64,000 bases of DNA from Bacteroidota bacterium. Its GTDB lineage: Bacteria > Bacteroidota > Bacteroidia > Chitinophagales > Chitinophagaceae. Both the position numbers and the translations under genes were made by a program. Position 1 is the first letter of the stretch, and every line of letters starts with the position of its first letter. The stretch covers positions 124,001-188,000 of the forward strand of contig VGFT01000004.1 of the NCBI GenBank assembly GCA_016868775.1. The letters run 5' to 3'. Of this stretch, positions 3,068-35,335 are shown in pieces. The notes beneath the pieces are model-generated. The model saw only the letters and a program-made list of their open reading frames with translations, was not told where the DNA came from and made no database searches.

Positions 3068-4860
3068 TATGAATTGTTTTGCTCATTTTTCCGTTCGCCG
3101 ATCTGCTGACGCCACATCGCATAATACAATCCTTTTTCGCCTAGTAATTGTTCGTGCGTACCGGTTTCCACAATATCGCCCTTCTCCAAAACATAGATGC
3201 GATCGGCATGCAAAATGGTCGATAACCGGTGGGCGATCAGAATGGTAATCTGTTCGCCTCGAAGCGAGACATCTCTGATGGTTTTATTAATCTCCTCTTC
3301 GGTAATGGAATCCAGTGCGGAAGTGGCTTCGTCGAATAAAAGAAGCCGTGGCCGACGCAGTAGGGCGCGGGCAATGGAGAGACGCTGTTTCTCCCCACCG
3401 GAAAGTTTGAGTCCGCCTTCCCCGATCAGCGCATCCAACCCTTGCTCAGAACGATTCAACAGATTCAGACAAGCGGCCCGGTTGATTACGTCGATCAGTT
3501 CTGTTTCGGTGGCATCCGGGCGCACGAACAGAAGGTTTTCTCTTATCGTACCGGAGAATAGTTGGGTGTCTTGTGTTACAAACCCGATCTGGTCGCGGAT
3601 CTCCTGAAAATGAATTTCGGATTCCGGAAGGCCATTAAAACAGATCGTTCCTTCTTGCGGACGATACAGTCCCACCAACAATTTCATCAGGGTGGTCTTT
3701 CCCGACCCGGAGGGGCCCACAAAGGCGATCGTTTCACCTCGATTGGCTTCGAAACTGATCCCGTTTACGGCGGGTTGTCCGCCTTCCCGGTTCCGGAACA
3801 AGATCCGGTCAAACGCTAATTTTTCAATGGGTCCCAGTTGTTTAGGGGTAGGAGGGGAGGGTTCCTGCTTTTTCTCCATCAGATTGCCGAAGTTCTCCAA
3901 CGAGGCTTGTGCTTCCCGATAAGTAAGGATGATGTTGCCGATCTCTTGCAGGGGACCAAAAACGAAGAAGGAGAAGATCTGCATGGTTACCAACTGGCCT
4001 GCGTTCATCTTTTCTCGGAATATCAACCACATCAGCATAAAGAGGATCACTTGGCGCAGAGTATTTACGAACGTGCCTTGTACAAAACTGATGCTGCGCA
4101 CTCGTTTCACTTTGGTCATCTCTAAGCCAAGGATCTTGAAGGTATTCTGGTTCAGTCGTTTTACTTCTTGGTTGGTCAGTCCTAAACTCTTCACCAATTC
4201 AATGTTCCGAAGCGACTCGGTCGTAGCGCCGGCCAGCGCGGTGGTTTGTCCGACGATCTGCTTTTGGATCCGCTTCACCTTTTTGCTTAGCAAATTCGAG
4301 ATCAACGTCAGCAAGAAGATCCCCCCGAAATAAATAAGCGGCAAACTCCAGTGGATGGCAGCGGCATAGACCGCCACAAAAAAGATGCCGACAATGACCG
4401 GGAAAAGAATATTGATAAAGGAAGCGACGAATTTTTCCGTATCGGTACGAACTTTTTGCAAGACGCTCAGGGTTTCTCCGCTGCGGGCATCTTCAAACTC
4501 TTGGTAGGGGAGACGCATCGCGTGTTGCAATCCTTCCGTAAATACGGTAGCGCCGAATTGCTGGATGATCCGCGTCAGCAAATAATCCTGAAAGGCCTTG
4601 GCGATGCGGCTAACCATGGCTACCCCGATCGAGGTCAGCAGCAAGGCCATCACGCCGTAGTGCGGATTTTCTTCAAACGATAAGAAGAATTTTTGGAAGT
4701 CGTACTCGGCGGGGTTAGTGGAATAATGACCGGCCAAGTTGACCAATTTCCCCAGCAAGATTGGGTCGATCAGGGAAAAGCCGATGTTGATTCCGGACAA
4801 TAACAACAGCAAGGCTACCCAGCCCCGGTGGGGGCGCAAATAATGGAACAGGATTTTCAT
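3067..4860 (-). CDS. ABC exporter, fused permease and ATPase (MsbA-like type IV exporter)
   Basis: The 597-residue protein joins a six-helix ABC transmembrane domain (about residues 1-320) to an ATPase domain. The ATPase has a Walker A GPSGSGKTT near 380, the Q-loop FVTQDTQ, the signature LSGGE near 485, Walker B LLLFDEATS near 505 and the H-loop AHRLST near 540, so it should be active as a homodimer or heterodimer. The substrate is not evident; lipid-linked saccharide or lipid export would fit the GT25 gene 17 nt upstream. It overlaps the rhodanese start by one base. Confidence 0.93.
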   Translation of the reverse strand: MKILFHYLRPHRGWVALLLLLSGINIGFSLIDPILLGKLVNLAGHYSTNPAEYDFQKFFLSFEENPHYGVMALLLTSIGVAMVSRIAKAFQDYLLTRIIQQFGATVFTEGLQHAMRLPYQEFEDARSGETLSVLQKVRTDTEKFVASFINILFPVIVGIFFVAVYAAAIHWSLPLIYFGGIFLLTLISNLLSKKVKRIQKQIVGQTTALAGATTESLRNIELVKSLGLTNQEVKRLNQNTFKILGLEMTKVKRVRSISFVQGTFVNTLRQVILFMLMWLIFREKMNAGQLVTMQIFSFFVFGPLQEIGNIILTYREAQASLENFGNLMEKKQEPSPPTPKQLGPIEKLAFDRILFRNREGGQPAVNGISFEANRGETIAFVGPSGSGKTTLMKLLVGLYRPQEGTICFNGLPESEIHFQEIRDQIGFVTQDTQLFSGTIRENLLFVRPDATETELIDVINRAACLNLLNRSEQGLDALIGEGGLKLSGGEKQRLSIARALLRRPRLLLFDEATSALDSITEEEINKTIRDVSLRGEQITILIAHRLSTILHADRIYVLEKGDIVETGTHEQLLGEKGLYYAMWRQQIGERKNEQNNS

Positions 4861-27119: not shown

Positions 27120-28448
27120 GTGAAACGCATTCTTCCCTGGATTATATTATTGATTGGCCTATCGTTGGTGGGCATTATTGGTATTCAGGTTTCCTGGATC
27201 AACAACATGATTTTGCTTCGCCAAGAGCAAATCAAACACAGTGTGGAGGAAGCGACTATATGGGTTGGGAATGATTTAGTAGCCCTCAAAAGTTCCTCAA
27301 CCGGTGCCCGCCCTTTCTGGGAAGACGATTTTCTTTCTCGGATCTTGCGTCCGCCAACCATCGGCAAGCAAGTCACCGCTGAAGAGGTAGAAAAAAAATT
27401 TCAACAGGCCTTTCGCAAATATCACTTACCGGAGCGGATGCGGTTTGAGTTTGGGATTGCCTCGCTCGAGGCAGCCGATGAAAATGCATTTGAAAAGATT
27501 TCCCCCAATTTTATCCAGACCTACATGGATACGACCCACAATTTCACGTTCAATTGGGTCTTGCAGTCTGGCAGCAGCACTTTGGGAGGGACGGGAATCG
27601 AAGAGGTTTTATTCGTGGTCATTCCTGATCTGCGCTCTTTGGTTTTGCAATCGTTGTGGTGGCGGATCACCATTTCCGTAATTTTTACATTGGTGATCAT
27701 GACGGCATTTTATGTAACCGTACGCACCATGGTTCGTCAAAAAAAATTAGTTGAGATCAAAAATGATTTCATCAACAATATGACGCACGAATTCAAAACG
27801 CCCATTGCTACCATTTCATTGGCGGTCGATGCCCTGCGCAATGAGAAAGTGAAGTCCGACCCCGAGCGTATGAATTATTTCAACTCTATCATTAAGGAGG
27901 AGAACCTGCGTATGAATCGCCAGGTGGAGACCATTCTTCGCGCCTCCCAACTGGAGCGACAGGATTTCGAGGTAGCATTTACTCCTGTTCATGTTCATCC
28001 ACTCATTCAACGGGTTGCCGATACCTTTTCGCTGCAGATCGATTCGCGTGCAGGCAGCCTGGTCCTTCGGCTTGACGCTGCTCAAGACCTCCTGCAAGCC
28101 GATGAGTCGCACTTGTCCAATCTCCTCAGCAACCTGATTGACAATGCACTGAAATATTGTAAAGAGGACGTTCCGCCTTCTGTGGAAATCGTCACCAAAA
28201 ACGAATCCGGTCAGTGGGTCATGTCGATCCGCGACAATGGCATTGGCATGTCGCGCGATACCTTGAAACGCATCTACGAGAAATTCTATCGGGCACATAC
28301 GGGAAATGTTCATAACGTCAAGGGCTTTGGGCTCGGACTGAGTTATGTCAAAACATTAGTCGATGCCCATCGAGGCTCCATCGAAGCAGAGAGCACCCTC
28401 GGCAAGGGCAGTTGTTTTACACTTCGGTTTCCGTTGGCGAAGGCCTAA
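27120..28448 (+). CDS. Membrane sensor histidine kinase, orphan
   Basis: From GTG 27120 the product has 442 residues. Two membrane segments (about 5-25 and 180-205) enclose a periplasmic sensor domain. The HisKA helix has NNMTHEFKTPIATISLAVDAL with the phosphorylated His near residue 223, and the ATPase domain has NLLSNLIDNALKYC, DNGIGMS and KGFGLGLSYVK. It should phosphorylate a response regulator in answer to an envelope signal, but no regulator gene is adjacent. Its TAA overlaps the end of convergent queA by 3 nt. Confidence 0.92.
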   Translation: MKRILPWIILLIGLSLVGIIGIQVSWINNMILLRQEQIKHSVEEATIWVGNDLVALKSSSTGARPFWEDDFLSRILRPPTIGKQVTAEEVEKKFQQAFRKYHLPERMRFEFGIASLEAADENAFEKISPNFIQTYMDTTHNFTFNWVLQSGSSTLGGTGIEEVLFVVIPDLRSLVLQSLWWRITISVIFTLVIMTAFYVTVRTMVRQKKLVEIKNDFINNMTHEFKTPIATISLAVDALRNEKVKSDPERMNYFNSIIKEENLRMNRQVETILRASQLERQDFEVAFTPVHVHPLIQRVADTFSLQIDSRAGSLVLRLDAAQDLLQADESHLSNLLSNLIDNALKYCKEDVPPSVEIVTKNESGQWVMSIRDNGIGMSRDTLKRIYEKFYRAHTGNVHNVKGFGLGLSYVKTLVDAHRGSIEAESTLGKGSCFTLRFPLAKA

Positions 28449-29677
28449 TCAGCTGCCAACGGATCGCGCCACAGCAGGCAGGCGTCCCCATAACTCAAAA
28501 ATCGAAAATCATTTTCCATCGCGTAGGAATAGATCCGGCGCCAGTTGTCGCCCACCAACGCAGCAATCAAGAGCAGTAGGGTTGATTTGGGTTGATGAAA
28601 ATTCGTGATCAAGCCATCGGCCATCCGAATCCGATAGCCCGGGGCGATTAGCAATTCGGTGCGCGTCCACAGCGAATCGCTTCCCTGCACATCCATTCGT
28701 TCCAAGACCGCCTCCAGTGCCACCTTGACCGGTATGGCAACCTTCGATTCATACGGCTCCCACTGCGTCAGTTTTTCCAAAGAGGCATTCCTGTTTTCCA
28801 CCAAGCGGGCCCCCAACCAATAAATCGATTCCAAGGTTCTGAGTACGGTGGTGCCCACTGCCACCCGCTTGCCGCGATGGGCCAGCAGCCGCTCAAGGGT
28901 AGGTCGGTGTAAGTGAATCCACTCTCCGTGCATGGGGTGATCGGCGAGTTGGTTAGCCGTGACCGGCTTAAACGTACCCGCTCCCACATGGAGGGTCAGA
29001 TCTAACCGCTCTACGCCCTTTCTGTGAAGCGTACCCAATAATTCATCCGTAAAGTGTAAGCCCGCTGTAGGTGCGGCAACCGATCCGTCTGCTGCCGCAT
29101 ACGTGGTTTGATAATCCGTTTGATCCTGCGCCTCCACCGAACGTTTCAGGTAAGGCGGAAGGGGTATGCGACCCGCCCGTTCCAACACTTCTCCAAAACT
29201 TCCGACCAATTCGGGCCATTCAAACTCGATCCGAAAATCCGTTTCCCCTTTCTCTAAAAAATGTGCCCGAAGCCAGGCCGCGGTCGATCCGCCGGATAAC
29301 TCTAGCAACAACACCTGCCCCTTCTTCCACTTGGAAGCCCCCCCAATCAGGCAGCGCCAAATTACCCGGCCCCGACAAGCCAATGCCGTAGAAACTTCCG
29401 GATACGAAGCGTCGGGCTCCAAACAAAAAATTTCGATCCGCCCACCGGAAGGTTTTTCAAAAACCAATCGCGCCGGAATGACCCGAGAATCGTTTACGCA
29501 TAATTGTACCGATTCGTCCAACTCCTCCGGAAGAAACACGAAACGAGACGGCCGAATCGCACCCGCACGATAGATCACGAGACGCGACTGGTCACGCGGC
29601 TGAACCGGATGGAGCGCAATGCGCTCCGGAGGCAATAAATAATCGTACTGAGCGATGTCAATCGAACGAGGATTCAT
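28445..29677 (-). CDS. queA: S-adenosylmethionine:tRNA ribosyltransferase-isomerase
   Basis: From ATG 29677 the product has 410 residues, longer than the 340-360 usual for QueA, as is common in Bacteroidota. Family signatures are DYLLPPERIALHP at the N-terminus, LCVNDSRVIPARL, TYAAADGSVAAPTAGLHFT and LLIAPGYRIRMADGLITNFHQPKSTLL. It makes epoxyqueuosine in the tRNA wobble base pathway. It is divergent from mraZ across 261 bp. Its own likely -7 element is CATTTTTG on the minus strand (29708-29701), one base off consensus. Confidence 0.95.
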   Translation of the reverse strand: MNPRSIDIAQYDYLLPPERIALHPVQPRDQSRLVIYRAGAIRPSRFVFLPEELDESVQLCVNDSRVIPARLVFEKPSGGRIEIFCLEPDASYPEVSTALACRGRVIWRCLIGGASKWKKGQVLLLELSGGSTAAWLRAHFLEKGETDFRIEFEWPELVGSFGEVLERAGRIPLPPYLKRSVEAQDQTDYQTTYAAADGSVAAPTAGLHFTDELLGTLHRKGVERLDLTLHVGAGTFKPVTANQLADHPMHGEWIHLHRPTLERLLAHRGKRVAVGTTVLRTLESIYWLGARLVENRNASLEKLTQWEPYESKVAIPVKVALEAVLERMDVQGSDSLWTRTELLIAPGYRIRMADGLITNFHQPKSTLLLLIAALVGDNWRRIYSYAMENDFRFLSYGDACLLWRDPLAAD

Positions 29678-29731
29678 ACGCAACCAACTGTTGTGTGCCG
29701 CAAAAATGCAGAAACCTCCCGGGTTTTCACA

Positions 29732-29761
29732 CTATCCACAGATTATCCACAGCTATTCACA
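29732..29761 (+). promoter_or_regulatory. Three tandem DnaA-box-like 9-mers between queA and mraZ
   Basis: CTATCCACA (29732-29740), TTATCCACA (29743-29751) and CTATTCACA (29753-29761) follow each other on the same strand at 11- and 10-bp steps. The middle one is the ideal DnaA box; the others differ from TTWTNCACA by one base. The next 41 bp (29765-29805) are strongly AT-rich. This arrangement fits a replication origin or a DnaA-controlled promoter. Confidence 0.6.
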
Positions 29762-29804
29762 TCCCAAACAAATATTTTTTCAAAAATCAACCATCAAATT
29801 GAAT

Positions 29805-29829
29805 GAAACGCCTTACGGTAAGGCGTTTC
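29805..29829. repeat. Perfect 12-bp inverted repeat in the mraZ leader region
   Basis: Arms GAAACGCCTTAC and GTAAGGCGTTTC flank a single G. It lies upstream of the mraZ promoter and far from any 3' end, since queA and mraZ both point away, so it is not a simple terminator. It may bind a dimeric protein or form a cruciform. Confidence 0.65.
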
Positions 29830-29869
29830 GTTGATTTTCGTCATGGGGATAAATTAAGGGGCCTCAAAA

Positions 29870-29905
29870 TTTGGTCACAAAGTGGTAAAAAGTGTTATTT
29901 TGTGT
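29870..29905 (+). promoter_or_regulatory. mraZ/dcw promoter with 10-bp-phased MraZ boxes
   Basis: AAAGTGG (29879), AAAGTGT (29889) and a weaker TTTGTGT (29899) repeat at exactly 10-bp steps. AAAGTG[GT] is the MraZ box reported in mollicutes, and E. coli MraZ also binds 10-bp-phased direct repeats. A TTG at 29871-29873 and TATTTTG at 29896-29902 are candidate -33 and -7 elements 22 nt apart, so the boxes lie over the promoter. Autorepression of the whole dcw cluster by MraZ is expected. Confidence 0.65.
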
Positions 29906-29938: not shown

Positions 29939-30406
29939 ATGACAGGCTTTATTGGAGAATACGAAGCAACGTTGGACGCCAAAGGGCGTTTTCTGCTTCC
30001 GGCTGGCTTCAAGCGTCAGTTGCCGGAGGGGGAGGGGTTGCAGTTTGTCATGAACCGGGGTTTTGAGAAGAGTCTGGCTTTATATCCGATCCAGAATTGG
30101 GAGCCGCTTTTTACTGACATCAGCCAGTTGAATGATTTCGATCCCAAGGTGCGGGAGTTTCGTCGCTATTTCTTGAATGGGGCGACGTTGGTGGAGCCGG
30201 ATACGGCGGGGCGGTTATTGGTGCCACCGAATTTGAAAGTGCATGCGCAGTTGCAGCGAGACATCGTGCTCGTCGCTGCGGTAAACAAGATTGAGATCTG
30301 GGATAGTAATACGTACAAGCAGTTCTTTGATTCGTTCTCTCCGGAGGCGTTCAGCAAGCTGGCGCAGGAGGTGATGGTTCCGAAACCCCCTTCATCTGGC
30401 CAATAA
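29939..30406 (+). CDS. mraZ: Transcriptional regulator MraZ
   Basis: From ATG 29939 the 155-residue product has two SpoVT/AbrB-like halves, each with its DxxGR motif: ATLDAKGRFLLPA near residue 12 and EPDTAGRLLVPP near 90. MraZ represses the dcw cluster by binding direct repeats in its own promoter. The frame is open back to 29882, inside the MraZ boxes, so the longer form is rejected. rsmH follows after 6 nt. Confidence 0.96.
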   Translation: MTGFIGEYEATLDAKGRFLLPAGFKRQLPEGEGLQFVMNRGFEKSLALYPIQNWEPLFTDISQLNDFDPKVREFRRYFLNGATLVEPDTAGRLLVPPNLKVHAQLQRDIVLVAAVNKIEIWDSNTYKQFFDSFSPEAFSKLAQEVMVPKPPSSGQ

Positions 30407-30412
30407 GTTCTG

Positions 30413-31345
30413 ATGGAAAGGAAGAGTACCGCTGATGCTTCCGATCCGTCCTACCACGTACCTGTACTCTTGCGCGAGGTGGTGGAGGGATTGAACATAA
30501 AGCCGGATGGGATTTATGTTGATTGCACGTTGGGGGGTGGGGGTCATGGCCGGGCGATTTTAGAAAGATTGGGTCCGCAGGGCCGGTTGATTGCATTCGA
30601 TCAGGATGCGGATGCGGTCAAGAATCTTCCGGTCGATTCGCGGGTAGCGTTTTGGCCGCAGAATTTTCGGCATCTCCGTCGGTTTCTTCGGTTGCAGGGT
30701 ATTGAACAGGTGGACGGAGTGCTTGCCGATTTGGGGGTAAGCAGTCACCAATTCGATGAAGCGGGTCGTGGGTTTTCCATTCGGTTTGAGGGGCCGTTGG
30801 ATATGCGAATGGACCAGCGGGAATCACGTACGGCGGCTGAGGTGATCGCGCGGTATTCGGAAGCCGACTTGCATCGAATGTTTGAGCAGTATGGGGAAGT
30901 GACCAATGCCCGAACCCTGGCGCGTCTTTTGGTTCAGCAGCGCACGCATGTGTCCATCGAAACCACACAAACGCTTAAGGATGTCATCCGGGAGATCGTA
31001 AAGGGGAATCCCAGCAAGTATTTCGCCCAGGTCTTTCAGGCCTTGCGCATGGAGGTCAATCAAGAAGTGTTGGTGTTGAAGGAATGGCTTGAGCAGTTGC
31101 CGGCCGTGCTTTCTCCCGGCGCGCGTGCAGCCGTAATCACATTTCATTCGATCGAAGACCGGTTGGTGAAACAATTTTTTCGCAGGGGTTCTTTTCAGGA
31201 TCCCGATCCCAATCCCTTTACCCGTACGGAGGATTGCTCTCCTTTTAATGTGATTACCAAAAAGCCGATCGAACCCACCGAAGAAGAGAAACAAATCAAT
31301 CCTCGTTCTCGCAGTGCCAAGCTGCGGATCGCGGAGCGGCGATGA
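30413..31345 (+). CDS. rsmH: 16S rRNA (cytosine-1402 N4) methyltransferase
   Basis: The 310-residue protein has YHVPVLLREVVEGL near the start, the SAM-binding VDCTLGGGGHGRAIL near 36, LADLGVSSHQFD, FSIRFEGPLDMRMD and VITFHSIEDRLVK. It methylates C1402 in the ribosomal P site. It is the second dcw gene, between mraZ and ftsL, the standard position. Confidence 0.97.
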   Translation: MERKSTADASDPSYHVPVLLREVVEGLNIKPDGIYVDCTLGGGGHGRAILERLGPQGRLIAFDQDADAVKNLPVDSRVAFWPQNFRHLRRFLRLQGIEQVDGVLADLGVSSHQFDEAGRGFSIRFEGPLDMRMDQRESRTAAEVIARYSEADLHRMFEQYGEVTNARTLARLLVQQRTHVSIETTQTLKDVIREIVKGNPSKYFAQVFQALRMEVNQEVLVLKEWLEQLPAVLSPGARAAVITFHSIEDRLVKQFFRRGSFQDPDPNPFTRTEDCSPFNVITKKPIEPTEEEKQINPRSRSAKLRIAERR

Positions 31346-31395: not shown

Positions 31396-31731
31396 ATGTC
31401 CGCCCCCGAAACAAAAATGAATTGGAAACAGTGGTTGAATTATCCCTCGCTGGTACGTCAGCTTCCCTTCATTTTATATCTCACGTTGCTTGGAGTGGTT
31501 TACATCTACAATGGTCATTGGGCAAACAAGACAATACGCAACATACAATTGGCGGAGAAAGAGATCCGTGAACTGAACTATGAATATGTGACGGCTAAGG
31601 GAGAGTTGTTGGCTAAGAGCAAACCCAGTGAGGTTTCTCAGGCCGTGGCCCCATTGGGATTGAAGGAGCTAAAAGGATCCCCTTGGGTATTATCGGATTC
31701 CTTGATTGTTCAAAAAAGAAAAACGGACTGA
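31396..31731 (+). CDS. ftsL: Cell division protein FtsL (Bacteroidota type)
   Basis: The 111-residue protein has a short cytoplasmic tail, one transmembrane helix (about 24-42) and a coiled-coil stretch (KTIRNIQLAEKEIRELNYEYVTAKGEL), the plan of FtsL. Sequence similarity to proteobacterial FtsL is low, so the call rests on layout and on its place between rsmH and the PBP gene. Its TGA overlaps the PBP start by one base. An alternative start is ATG 31417. Confidence 0.85.
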   Translation: MSAPETKMNWKQWLNYPSLVRQLPFILYLTLLGVVYIYNGHWANKTIRNIQLAEKEIRELNYEYVTAKGELLAKSKPSEVSQAVAPLGLKELKGSPWVLSDSLIVQKRKTD

Positions 31732-33875
31732 TGGATACCAAGCGCGACATATTGGGGCGGGTGTATCTGAGTTTCATCGGAATTGTACTGATGGGTTCGT
31801 TGGTACTGGGCAGGGCTGTATACATACAACGTGTAGAGGGAAATTACTGGCGGGCCTTGAGTGATAGCATGCGGCAGCGGTTTGTTCCGCTGGATGCCCA
31901 GCGGGGTACAATCTATACCGAGAAGGGGGAGATGCTCAGCGCGTCCGTTCCCACGTTTGATCTGTATTTCGATTTTCAAGCAGATGGATTGCGCGAGGGA
32001 AACGGGAAAGTATTCTTTGCGAAGATTGATTCGTTTGCCCGTTCGATGTCGGCCTACTTCGGCGACCGGTCGGCTGCTGAATATGCCAGCGACTTCAAAG
32101 CCGGGTATAAAAAAGGGGATCGGTATTACCCGCTGAAGAAAAAGTTGAGTTTCGAGCAATACAAGGCCTTTCGCTCTTTTCCGTTGGCCAACTTGGGGCG
32201 CAACAAAAGCGGATTGATTGTGGAGGTGCACAACAAACGTCTGGTTCCCTACGGATTATTGGCCAGTCGCACCATCGGGCTGTCTCGTGAGTACATTCTC
32301 TCCGACGGAAAAATTAAGAAAATGAACGTTGGGTTGGAGCAGAGTTACGACTCGTTGCTCAGTGGACGGGATGGTCAGCGTATGGTGCGTTTTATTGCGC
32401 CCGGCACGGCCATCCCCATTGATGGTACGGAGTTGGAGCCGATAAATGGAAAAGACATCTATACAACGCTTGATTTGTCTATACAGGATATCACCGAGCA
32501 GGCCTTGTTGCAGCAACTGGAAAAATTTGAGGCGTTGTATGGCACCGCCATTGTAATCGAAACGGCCACGGGCAAGATCAAAGCGATCGCGAACCTGGGT
32601 CGGCGTTCCGATGGCAGTTACTGGGAGGACGATAATTACGCGCTGCGTTATACCGAACCGGGCTCCACGATTAAGTTGGTGACGCTGATGGCGGTGTTGG
32701 AAAAGGGTACCAGCCGGGCAACGGATTCGGTTTTTATCGGAACGGCTCAGACGGCACAGGTCGGTCCTAAATCGGTTACGGATGCCGAGCGTTCCATCCA
32801 TCCTGTGTTGACGGTACCGGAGTGTTTCGCGCACAGCTCCAACATTGGAATGAGTCGGTTGGCCTTAAAGGCCTTTGGGGAGCGCCCCGGTGAGCTTCGC
32901 GAGTACATGCATCGATTTCGTATGGACGAGCCCTTGCAAGTGGGCCTTTCAACCAGCGGAAAGCCAACGTTTGTTGATCTGGAAAAGAAGGGAAGTGGTC
33001 TGTCGGATATGCTATCAATGAGTTTTGGGTATGCCTCAACGGTTAGTCCGCTAAACACCCTCACGCTCTACAACGCAGTGGCGAATGGCGGAAAAATGAT
33101 GAAGCCCTATTTGGTGCATTCCATTCGGCAGGGGGGTGTATTGTATCGACAATTTGAGCCCACGGTTTTGTTGTCGGCGGTGGCCAGACCCGAGGTCATT
33201 CAAGCGGCTCGAAAGGCAATGGAACTGGTAACCACGGAGGGTACGGCCAAATATGTATTCAAGGGAATGCCGTTCTCGGTAGCGGGTAAGACGGGTACAA
33301 ATAAAATATGGGATGGACCATACACCTATGACGATGGTGTTTATCAAGCCTCTTTTGTAGGGTTTTTCCCTGCTGATCAGCCAAAATATTCTTGCATTGT
33401 TCTGATCCGGACCAAGCCGCACGCCGCTAACATATTTGGAGGAACACTGGCGGCACCCGTTTTCCGGGAGATCGCCACCAAGCTCTATGCGATGTATGTG
33501 GATCGTCCCGAACCACATGGTGTTGTAGCACGTGCCGACAGCTCACTTTCCTTGTACGCTGGCTACCGGGCCTCCTTGCAACGAGTGTATTCACGGCTGG
33601 GACTTTCGTTTGTTGACTCGACTCAACGAGGCGATTTAATTCAAGTACGTGCTCAAAATGCTCAGAATGTTTGGCGACCGCAGCAAGTGCCTGCCAACAC
33701 CTTGCCGGATTTGCGGGGAATGAGTTTGCGCGATGCCATCGGGCAGGTGGATCGGATGCGGCTGGGCATACAGGTCGAAGTGATCGGAAAAGGGAAGATC
33801 ATTAAACAATCCATACCGGCAGGTACCACTCCAACGCGGGGCAGTAAACTAACGCTTGAATTGGGCGGATCATGA
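31731..33875 (+). CDS. ftsI: Division-specific penicillin-binding protein 2/3 with PASTA domain (FtsI)
   Basis: The 714-residue protein has an N-terminal membrane helix, a dimerisation domain and a transpeptidase with SxxK GSTIKL near residue 312, SSN near 370 and KTG near 520. A single PASTA domain ends the protein (LPDLRGMSLRDAIGQV, about 655-714). It crosslinks septal peptidoglycan with FtsW. The PASTA domain is typical of Bacteroidota and Firmicutes forms rather than of E. coli FtsI. Start ATG 31731 overlaps ftsL by one base; its TGA overlaps murE (ATGA). Confidence 0.95.
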   Translation: MDTKRDILGRVYLSFIGIVLMGSLVLGRAVYIQRVEGNYWRALSDSMRQRFVPLDAQRGTIYTEKGEMLSASVPTFDLYFDFQADGLREGNGKVFFAKIDSFARSMSAYFGDRSAAEYASDFKAGYKKGDRYYPLKKKLSFEQYKAFRSFPLANLGRNKSGLIVEVHNKRLVPYGLLASRTIGLSREYILSDGKIKKMNVGLEQSYDSLLSGRDGQRMVRFIAPGTAIPIDGTELEPINGKDIYTTLDLSIQDITEQALLQQLEKFEALYGTAIVIETATGKIKAIANLGRRSDGSYWEDDNYALRYTEPGSTIKLVTLMAVLEKGTSRATDSVFIGTAQTAQVGPKSVTDAERSIHPVLTVPECFAHSSNIGMSRLALKAFGERPGELREYMHRFRMDEPLQVGLSTSGKPTFVDLEKKGSGLSDMLSMSFGYASTVSPLNTLTLYNAVANGGKMMKPYLVHSIRQGGVLYRQFEPTVLLSAVARPEVIQAARKAMELVTTEGTAKYVFKGMPFSVAGKTGTNKIWDGPYTYDDGVYQASFVGFFPADQPKYSCIVLIRTKPHAANIFGGTLAAPVFREIATKLYAMYVDRPEPHGVVARADSSLSLYAGYRASLQRVYSRLGLSFVDSTQRGDLIQVRAQNAQNVWRPQQVPANTLPDLRGMSLRDAIGQVDRMRLGIQVEVIGKGKIIKQSIPAGTTPTRGSKLTLELGGS

Positions 33876-35335
33876 TTATAAAAGACCTACTATATCAAAT
33901 CTCCGTTCGCTCGGTTCGAGGCAACCAAGAGGAAGAGGTCAATTTCCTGCATACCGACTCTCGAACCGTTCTACCTGGATCGGCTTTTGTGGCGCTACGG
34001 GGTACACAGGTCGACGGCCATACGTATATCGAACAAGCTTTGGCGCAAGGAGCCTCTTTGATCGTGGCGGAAACGGAACCACCCATCGACGGCCGGAACA
34101 CGCCGTGGATCGTTGTATCCAACTCCGCCGTGGCGTTGGCTGAAATGGCTGCAAATTTTTATGGCCACCCGGCCCGGCAATTAACCATCGTAGGAGTAAC
34201 CGGTACGAACGGAAAAACAACCGTTGCCACCCTGTTGTATAAATTGTTTGATTCCCTGGGCTACCGCTGCGGGTTACTCAGCACCGTCGAAAATCAAATA
34301 GCCGGTCAGGTTTTCGAAGCGACGCATACCACCCCCGATGCCATACAACTCCACGGGTTGTTGCGGCGGATGGTAGATGCCAGATGCACGCACGTATTTA
34401 TGGAGGTCAGTTCCCATGCCCTTCACCAGCATCGGGTTCATGGCCTATCCTTCCGGGGAGGCATCTTCACCAATATCACCCACGACCACCTCGATTACCA
34501 TCAAACCTTTGAGGAATACATCCGGGTGAAAAAATCCCTTTTTGATGGGTTGTCTGGCTCCTCCTTTGCCCTGAGTAATGCCGATGACAAGCGGGGAGGG
34601 GTGATGTTGCAGAACACATCGGCACATGCATCTTACTATGCCTTTCGCACGGTGGCCGACTTCAAAGGAAAGGTTTTGGAAAATGGGTTGGATGGCTTGC
34701 TCCTTTCTATTGATCAGGTCGATGTGCATTTTCGGCTTGTCGGTGAATTCAATGCCTATAACCTATTGGCGGTTTATGGGGCGGCGTGTTTACTCGGGGT
34801 AGATAAGCAGGAAGTACTTACCCGGCTTAGTCAACTCACCGGAGCAACCGGCCGGTTCGACTGCTACCGCTCCCCAAAAACCGGTGTTTTGGGCATCATC
34901 GATTATGCACATACCCCCGATGCCTTACAAAATGTGTTGAGTACGATTGGTCGGCTGCGTCAAGGATCTCAACGGGTAATTACGGTTGTAGGGTGCGGAG
35001 GCAATCGAGATGCTTCAAAGCGCCCCATTATGGCTGCAGTTGCTTGTGCCCTGAGTGATCAGGCCATTTTCACGAGCGATAATCCTCGCTTTGAGGATCC
35101 TAAGCAGATTCTCGCGGATATGGAACGGGAACTGACACCCACCGATCGCCGTAAATGTCTGTCAATTCTTGACCGCCGGGAGGCGATCAAAGCCGCGGTG
35201 CAACTCACAGCGCCCAACGATATTATGCTGGTGGCTGGAAAAGGGCATGAGCCGTATCAAGAAGTCGCGGGTCGACGGGAGCCCTTTGACGATAAAAAAA
35301 TGATGCTTGAATTTTTTGAATTGCTCGAAAAATAA
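33872..35335 (+). CDS. murE: UDP-MurNAc-L-Ala-D-Glu:meso-diaminopimelate ligase
   Basis: The 487-residue Mur ligase has the ATP motif GVTGTNGKTT near residue 110, the carbamylated-Lys region and the C-terminal TSDNPRFEDP. The DNPR motif (near 404) selects meso-diaminopimelate, so the peptidoglycan is of the DAP type. It adds the third residue of the stem peptide in the cytoplasm. Confidence 0.97.
   Translation: MIIKDLLYQISVRSVRGNQEEEVNFLHTDSRTVLPGSAFVALRGTQVDGHTYIEQALAQGASLIVAETEPPIDGRNTPWIVVSNSAVALAEMAANFYGHPARQLTIVGVTGTNGKTTVATLLYKLFDSLGYRCGLLSTVENQIAGQVFEATHTTPDAIQLHGLLRRMVDARCTHVFMEVSSHALHQHRVHGLSFRGGIFTNITHDHLDYHQTFEEYIRVKKSLFDGLSGSSFALSNADDKRGGVMLQNTSAHASYYAFRTVADFKGKVLENGLDGLLLSIDQVDVHFRLVGEFNAYNLLAVYGAACLLGVDKQEVLTRLSQLTGATGRFDCYRSPKTGVLGIIDYAHTPDALQNVLSTIGRLRQGSQRVITVVGCGGNRDASKRPIMAAVACALSDQAIFTSDNPRFEDPKQILADMERELTPTDRRKCLSILDRREAIKAAVQLTAPNDIMLVAGKGHEPYQEVAGRREPFDDKKMMLEFFELLEK

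Follow-up and report, generated by a model that had tools for sequence, protein, structure and literature searches.

A phased DnaA-box-like array upstream of mraZ in Chitinophagaceae as a probable regulatory element of the dcw operon

The coupling of replication initiation to cell division is a long-standing open question, and the locus described here raises it in a concrete form: do the DnaA-box-like sites in the divergent spacer between queA and mraZ mark a replication origin, or do they serve the division genes? The sites lie in a stretch of 64,000 nucleotides from a member of the Chitinophagaceae, a family found in soil and water (contig VGFT01000004.1, assembly GCA_016868775.1), referred to here as the window. 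An earlier note on this DNA had offered both readings, a minimal oriC or a DnaA-regulated promoter linking replication to the division and murein genes. Comparison with relatives leads us to favour, with moderate confidence, the view that the boxes represent, in this genome, a regulatory element which Chitinophagaceae conserve ahead of the mraZ/dcw operon and to which DnaA binds. The array may tie the division genes to the replication cycle, and a conserved array of DnaA type in front of the dcw operon of a whole family would be a clean, mutable candidate for the coupling.

The local arrangement is exactly as it had been described, with three boxes head to tail at start-to-start distances of 11 bp (boxes 1-2) and 10 bp (boxes 2-3), about 40 bp of AT-rich DNA behind them, and queA and mraZ, both confirmed by Pfam matches, diverging on either side (Table 1). 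The start of queA is an ATG at 29677, for which the list of open reading frames gives an in-frame TTG at 29683. Taken singly, boxes show no enrichment in the window, which contains 15 matches to TTATCCACA with at most one mismatch compared to 13.9 expected. Their clustering is beyond chance: the pattern TATYCACA-N0-6-TATYCACA is present in the 2.03 Mb assembly at the array alone (two overlapping places; backward control 0), and same-strand neighbour boxes 10-11 bp apart, searched with one mismatch allowed and position 5 free, occurred at the array alone in 1,015,580 sampled bases of the window's genome. Rfam gave two sub-threshold matches, neither of them credible.

Table 1. Features of the queA-mraZ spacer and of the flanking genes (positions in the window).
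Feature	Position	Strand	Basis or remark
queA, left divergent neighbour	28445-29677	-	ORF; Pfam PF02547, E 3.7e-94
DnaA-box-like site 1, CTATCCACA	29732-29740	+	at..cACa kept in at least 60% of aligned same-genus rows
DnaA-box-like site 2, TTATCCACA	29743-29751	+	perfect consensus; best conserved unit in genus (TTaTCCAC)
DnaA-box-like site 3, CTATTCACA	29753-29761	+	genus consensus gcaATnCACA
AT-rich tract, 41 bp, 24% GC	29762-29802		base composition
Place of a fourth phased unit	29764-29772	+	genus alignment; about yAtYCACg in relatives, eroded in the window's genome
Near-perfect palindrome GAAACGCCTTACGGTAAGGCGTTTC, 25 bp	29805-29829		sequence
Reverse-facing box-like element TTATCCCCA	29844-29852	-	95 bp before mraZ start; TTWTCCMCA in relatives
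Putative mraZ promoter, TTTG and TATTTTGT, 26 bp apart	29870-29873 and 29896-29903	+	near-invariant in genus alignment
MraZ-box-like array GTG-N7-GTG-N7-GTG	29882-29904	+	strict 10-bp period, inside the putative promoter
mraZ, first gene of the dcw cluster	29939-30406	+	ORF; PF02381
rsmH	30413-31345	+	ORF and Pfam
FtsL-like	31396-31731	+	ORF and Pfam
Penicillin-binding transpeptidase with PASTA	ends 33875	+	ORF and Pfam
Mur ligase	33872-35335	+	ORF and Pfam

MraZ loci for comparison came from 58 searched genomes, 55 of which had a match, and from named records, of which the best 80 were kept out of at least 573 relatives; their titles are mostly Chitinophagaceae or broader Bacteroidota. One record (L118) is titled Williamsia sp., an actinobacterium, and carries an mraZ 71% identical to that of the window; its title or bin is probably wrong. 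The 114 upstream regions were reduced to 113 by removal of G002, which is cut by a contig end, and to 102 spacers by removal of 11 near-identical regions. Boxes were counted with one mismatch allowed and position 5 free, against 30 shuffle runs and a reversed-letter control. The 102 spacers hold 231 forward boxes, compared to a shuffle mean of 20.4 (maximum 29) and 34 in the reversed control. Two or more forward boxes are present in 80 spacers (1.6 on average in shuffles, 5 in the reversed control), three or more in 42 (0.13 and 0) and a phased forward pair in 62 (0.03 and 1); a phased reverse pair occurs in none of the 102, four spacers are without any forward box and 22 have fewer than two. 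Distances between forward boxes of up to 45 bp fall on a helical grid (10-11, 20-22, 31-32 and 41-44 bp) in 178 of 182 cases, and adjacent units are 11 bp apart in 50 pairs and 10 bp apart in 34.

An array of this kind precedes mraZ in nearly all of the Chitinophagaceae spacers studied. Units were also chained by nothing other than 'AC' dinucleotides 10 or 11 bp apart within -235 to -150. This yields 446 units in the 102 spacers, of which 93 hold at least three (none in 2 spacers, two in 7, three in 17, four in 44, five in 15, more in 17). The units read T/C, T/A, A (74%), T (78%), Y, C (71%; A 21%), A, C, A (67%), so that phased 'AC' alone recovers the DnaA consensus, TTATYCACA. In the genus alignment of 33 usable regions, four phased units stand at about -207, -196, -186 and -175 from the mraZ start. 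Such arrays recur in the best 80 named loci, where Chitinophaga units are often TTATAAACA or TTATTAACA. A close TATYCACA pair is found in 12 same-genus genomes, in 8 of the 12 at the place of the mraZ array; seven of these eight pairs lie beside mraZ and one at a contig end beside queA only.

Among the same 80 named loci (the best of at least 573), queA is divergently upstream in 38, its start being 191-790 bp away from mraZ. Within -230, the range to which this comparison was confined, the first box stands at -171 to -225 whether queA is 191-790 bp away or was not found. Since the distance to mraZ is stable while that to queA varies, the array goes with mraZ, and it is also present in most loci that have no queA. 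The outward-pointing queA/dcw pair, which had been taken as a sign of an origin, is thereby no signature of one. The alignment across relatives that the earlier note had proposed as a check thus finds an array kept at a nearly fixed distance from mraZ. Conserved boxes at a fixed distance upstream of the same gene are one mark of a DnaA-regulated promoter, and as far as comparison can tell they lend support to the promoter reading.

The other reading, that the array is the chromosomal oriC or a minimal origin, draws on the joint occurrence of boxes, AT-rich tract and divergent genes. GC skew in 2-kb windows also turns from -0.095 to +0.165 across the boxes, although divergent genes alone would do likewise. 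At the 10-kb scale, however, contig C4, which carries the window, shows no turn from negative to positive at the boxes (153.7 kb): skew is positive in the stretch that leads up to them from 130 kb, and zero to positive beyond them as far as the contig end. Two Chitinophaga genomes turn upstream of nadA, about 1 Mb from mraZ. In C. polysaccharea, 10 of 11 sampled stretches between 0.1 and 2.395 Mb have negative skew and all four sampled from 2.402 Mb onward have positive skew, with the turn at nadA (2.401 Mb) and mraZ at 1.361 Mb; a stretch just right of mraZ that is slightly positive (+0.018) between negative ones would suit an origin there. For C. pinensis, skew was obtained from 20-kb samples of record LR632930, a sequence interrupted by some runs of N. 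Between 4.1 Mb and, across the end of the record, 0.65 Mb the samples are negative, including those on both sides of mraZ (6.22 Mb); between 0.95 and 3.8 Mb they are positive. Within 650-965 kb, where sampling was dense, the minimum is at 877,942. The largest box cluster of this region (881.8-882.1 kb) lies 4 kb away from it, between a gene of SurA/PpiD type (ppiD) and nadA.

Boxes are enriched upstream of nadA in both sets into which the 25 loci were divided, with 85 against 16 expected in 16 same-genus genomes and 77 against 8.4 in nine other Chitinophagaceae, single loci holding 2 to 11 boxes. We also propose this spacer as a candidate oriC of Chitinophagaceae (C. pinensis L265, about 881.7-882.4 kb; L258-L282). 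Its boxes belong to the same family as those at mraZ, but they extend over several hundred bp in both orientations at a skew turn, whereas the mraZ array is compact, one-directional and without a large-scale turn. At mraZ, then, a DnaA-box cluster is present, a large-scale skew minimum is absent, and the cluster at the skew turn of relatives lies elsewhere, which makes it very unlikely that the mraZ array is oriC. A skew minimum elsewhere, together with a lack both of conservation and of DnaA binding, had been named in advance as what would refute the proposal; a skew minimum elsewhere was found in relatives, and the boxes proved to be conserved.

What speaks for an origin at mraZ in the window's genome itself is that nadA was not detected there, that the spacer upstream of its ppiD is not significantly rich in boxes, and that its own origin was not located. 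The gene nadA is present in 25 of 29 genomes and was not found in the window's genome, G007, G014 and G023. At the loci inspected, ppiD adjoins nadA in C. pinensis, G025 and G029 and is about 3 kb away in G022. In the sampled half of the window's genome, the 600 bp of lowest GC (26.5%) fall in the ppiD-upstream spacer, and in three genomes this spacer has 7 boxes compared to 2.9 expected (shuffle maximum 8), which is not above chance. A few weak box-like sites occur there (L287, about 3650-4320, corresponding to contig C1 at about 451.0-451.7 kb), at places partly shared with G007 and G014, and it is possible that this spacer is the genome's own origin. Also rejected as an origin was the point of lowest skew in the contiguous sample of C1 (373,053), where the only boxes are weak ones within a coding frame.

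Returning to the regulatory element that we favour, it takes the form of a head-to-tail phased row, in most cases of 3-5 units, of which two or three come close to the consensus. The row lies about 155-225 bp upstream of mraZ and faces a single reverse box, placed near -100 and beside the putative mraZ promoter. In the box count over the 102 spacers, 88 of 106 reverse matches fall in the -100 to -91 bin. The form of the reverse element, taken from the best match per spacer in a 40-bp stretch, is TTWTCC(A/C)CA. The window's TTATCCCCA is off the DnaA core and a poor DnaA box, and the same C is found in about a quarter of the 102 spacers. Outside the family, the comparison covered 18 of the 21 genomes of the order beyond the genus that have a MraZ match (G035, G051 and G057 were left out), some of the 18 start codons being approximate. 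A reverse box at -125 to -75 is present in 6 of these 18 spacers (shuffles 0.9, maximum 4), in 4 of the 6 perfect apart from the free position (shuffles 0.03, maximum 2). A forward box occurs in 2 of the 18 (shuffles 0.6) and a phased forward array in none. Because some of these 18 spacers have the reverse box and all lack the phased array, the reverse box may be older and the forward array may have been added in Chitinophagaceae.

Within the putative promoter, we take TTTG at 29870-29873 to be the -33 element. The downstream part, TATTTTGT, is closer to TAnnTTGY than to the sigma-A form TAnnTTTG (both forms as given in the accessible part of PMC9723704). The three GTG repeats with a 10-bp period in this promoter resemble the MraZ boxes of autoregulation in E. 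coli and Mollicutes, where the accessible part of PMC8475190 gives AAAGTG[T/G] as the Mollicute repeat. GTG-N7-GTG-N7-KTG was found in 111 of 114 upstream regions, duplicates included, and the promoter-proximal boxes read GTGGGAAAAA or GTGTTATTTT. When 395 genomes of the phylum were scanned for a composite pattern of a perfect-type reverse box and the MraZ triple, 10 of 13 genomes of the family and 5 of 382 others matched, compared to 1 of 395 for the backward control, the matches being places of the pattern not individually tied to mraZ. The window's genome is missed by this pattern, its reverse element being TGGGGATAA.

Given the MraZ boxes nearby, the upstream array might itself be a second, distal set of MraZ sites. 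Read on the minus strand, its units are GTGRATAA with a GTG core and a period of about 10 bp, and MraZ is a named alternative because E. coli MraZ is said, in the accessible part of PMC4446571, to bind a site overlapping a DnaA box of the mioC promoter. However, the strict 10-bp GTG repetition of an MraZ operator is found at 29882-29904 and not in the array, which mixes 11- and 10-bp steps, is separate and upstream, and has another consensus, TTATYCACA. We consider this explanation unlikely. As for DnaA, the protein of the window's genome has the usual domains, its HTH motif GGRDHTTVIH aligns with DnaA chain 8btg, and its gene is 46 kb away on the same contig. No consistent box array was found in the dnaA upstream regions of 11 genomes.

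Some other regulator with DnaA-like sites could also occupy the array, most plausibly in Chitinophaga with its AACA-rich units. There, position 6 is A in 26 of 50 array units compared to 3 of 42 oriC boxes (TTATAAACA, TTATTAACA), in a comparison of 23 array spacers, not dereplicated, with 7 oriC loci. This difference also counts against DnaA as the binder of the array. In the window's genus, by contrast, array and oriC boxes agree at position 2, where T:A is 28:29 and 23:22, respectively, the other positions being fixed by the pattern. Chitinophaga uses less A at this position in the array (p 0.008); the same tendency at oriC is not significant (p 0.075). Moreover, the clusters of L180, L181 and L183 have TTATTAACA between TTATCCACA and GTATCCACA with a 10-bp phase, for which reason the AACA units are perhaps weak DnaA sites. 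A different regulator appears improbable.

If the array is a regulatory element bound by DnaA, the most likely course is that a short, ordered DnaA oligomer occupies it along one helical face and also contacts the reverse box. The level or nucleotide state of DnaA would tune transcription of mraZ-rsmH-ftsL-ftsI-mur, the genes under control reaching from mraZ through rsmH, the FtsL-like gene and the transpeptidase with PASTA to the Mur ligase (to 35335), and MraZ would act from its own GTG boxes inside the promoter, apart from the DnaA array. From the sequence we infer DnaA as the binder and an action on transcription, and the sign of the effect would be a matter of inference as well. More tentatively, the whole family might use a dedicated orisome-like array, in which phased forward boxes face a reverse box near the promoter, to sense the state of replication and, together with MraZ, to set the output of the whole dcw operon. 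Against regulation, the array lies about 145-175 bp upstream of the presumed start site, which is far for simple activation. The spacers with no or fewer than two forward boxes, the poor reverse element of the window and the lack of a phased array in the 18 spacers from other families also weigh against the reading that we favour. A study of replication arrest in B. subtilis, in its accessible part, reports RsmH and PbpB, the measurable products encoded in the same operon as ftsL, to be unchanged (PMC11019786), a result that, by analogy, would count against DnaA control of the mraZ operon.

DnaA boxes in front of division genes are described for B. subtilis ftsL, C. crescentus ftsZ/mipZ and E. 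coli ftsZ/mioC in the accessible portion of the review PMC8203912, and binding of DnaA to the B. subtilis ftsL promoter in those of PMC8203912 and PMC11019786. The likeness to our locus lies in boxes before such genes, in ftsL belonging to the same dcw cluster, and in the proposed link between replication and division. Unlike these cases (as far as PMC8203912 presents them), the sites here are putative and form a phased array with a reverse box, 155-225 bp upstream of mraZ, that is conserved throughout a family from a different phylum. In principle, regulation of division genes by DnaA is known (PMC8203912, as far as accessible). The words mraZ and Bacteroid- are absent from the main text of that review, and titles and abstract beginnings of the open-licence literature showed no paper that describes such an array ahead of mraZ in Bacteroidota.

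Box clusters may also serve DnaA without regulating a neighbouring gene. The datA and DARS loci of E. coli are non-origin DnaA-box clusters that act on the nucleotide state of DnaA and have IHF/Fis sites. The mraZ array shares with them the position of a box cluster outside the origin and differs in being tied to a promoter. A titration or nucleotide-exchange locus (datA-, DARS- or DDAH-like) placed before mraZ without regulating it would also fit the scarcity of TTATYCACA in the window's genome, with 12 sites in the whole assembly against 25 for the backward control. Judging from this halved frequency, stray boxes look as if they were avoided. Nine of the 11 other sites were inspected as sequence, and a near partner was seen in only two places: the inverted pair on contig C1 (194180/194202), 22 bp apart, and the site at 96155 on contig C2, with TTTTCCACA in reverse 13 bp on. 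A second cluster away from nadA in three Chitinophaga genomes would be in line with titration as well. The near-fixed distance to mraZ, with a varying other neighbour, and the reverse box adjoining the putative promoter argue against it, and we regard a pure titration locus as rather unlikely.

Some smaller observations concern individual sites. A perfect reverse TTATCCACA lies at 113966-113974 of contig C4, just upstream of a frame that by eye resembles dnaB, the replicative helicase. The palindrome at 29805-29829, which lies between the two promoters, is followed by no T-run as would be typical of a terminator. Nine of 113 regions have an inverted repeat of the type GAAA...TTTC with a score of at least 9 (7 distinct sequences, against a shuffle maximum of 8). 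The arms of the palindrome change together in some relatives (L101, G007, G003), which suggests a dimer site or hairpin. The second Chitinophaga cluster comprises 7-8 DnaA boxes (L181 1471-1647, also L180 and L183), is alike in the three genomes, and adjoins a frame that by eye is of TetR type; it is possibly a locus like datA or DARS. Beside it lies GAAACCCTTT, which is similar to the palindrome.
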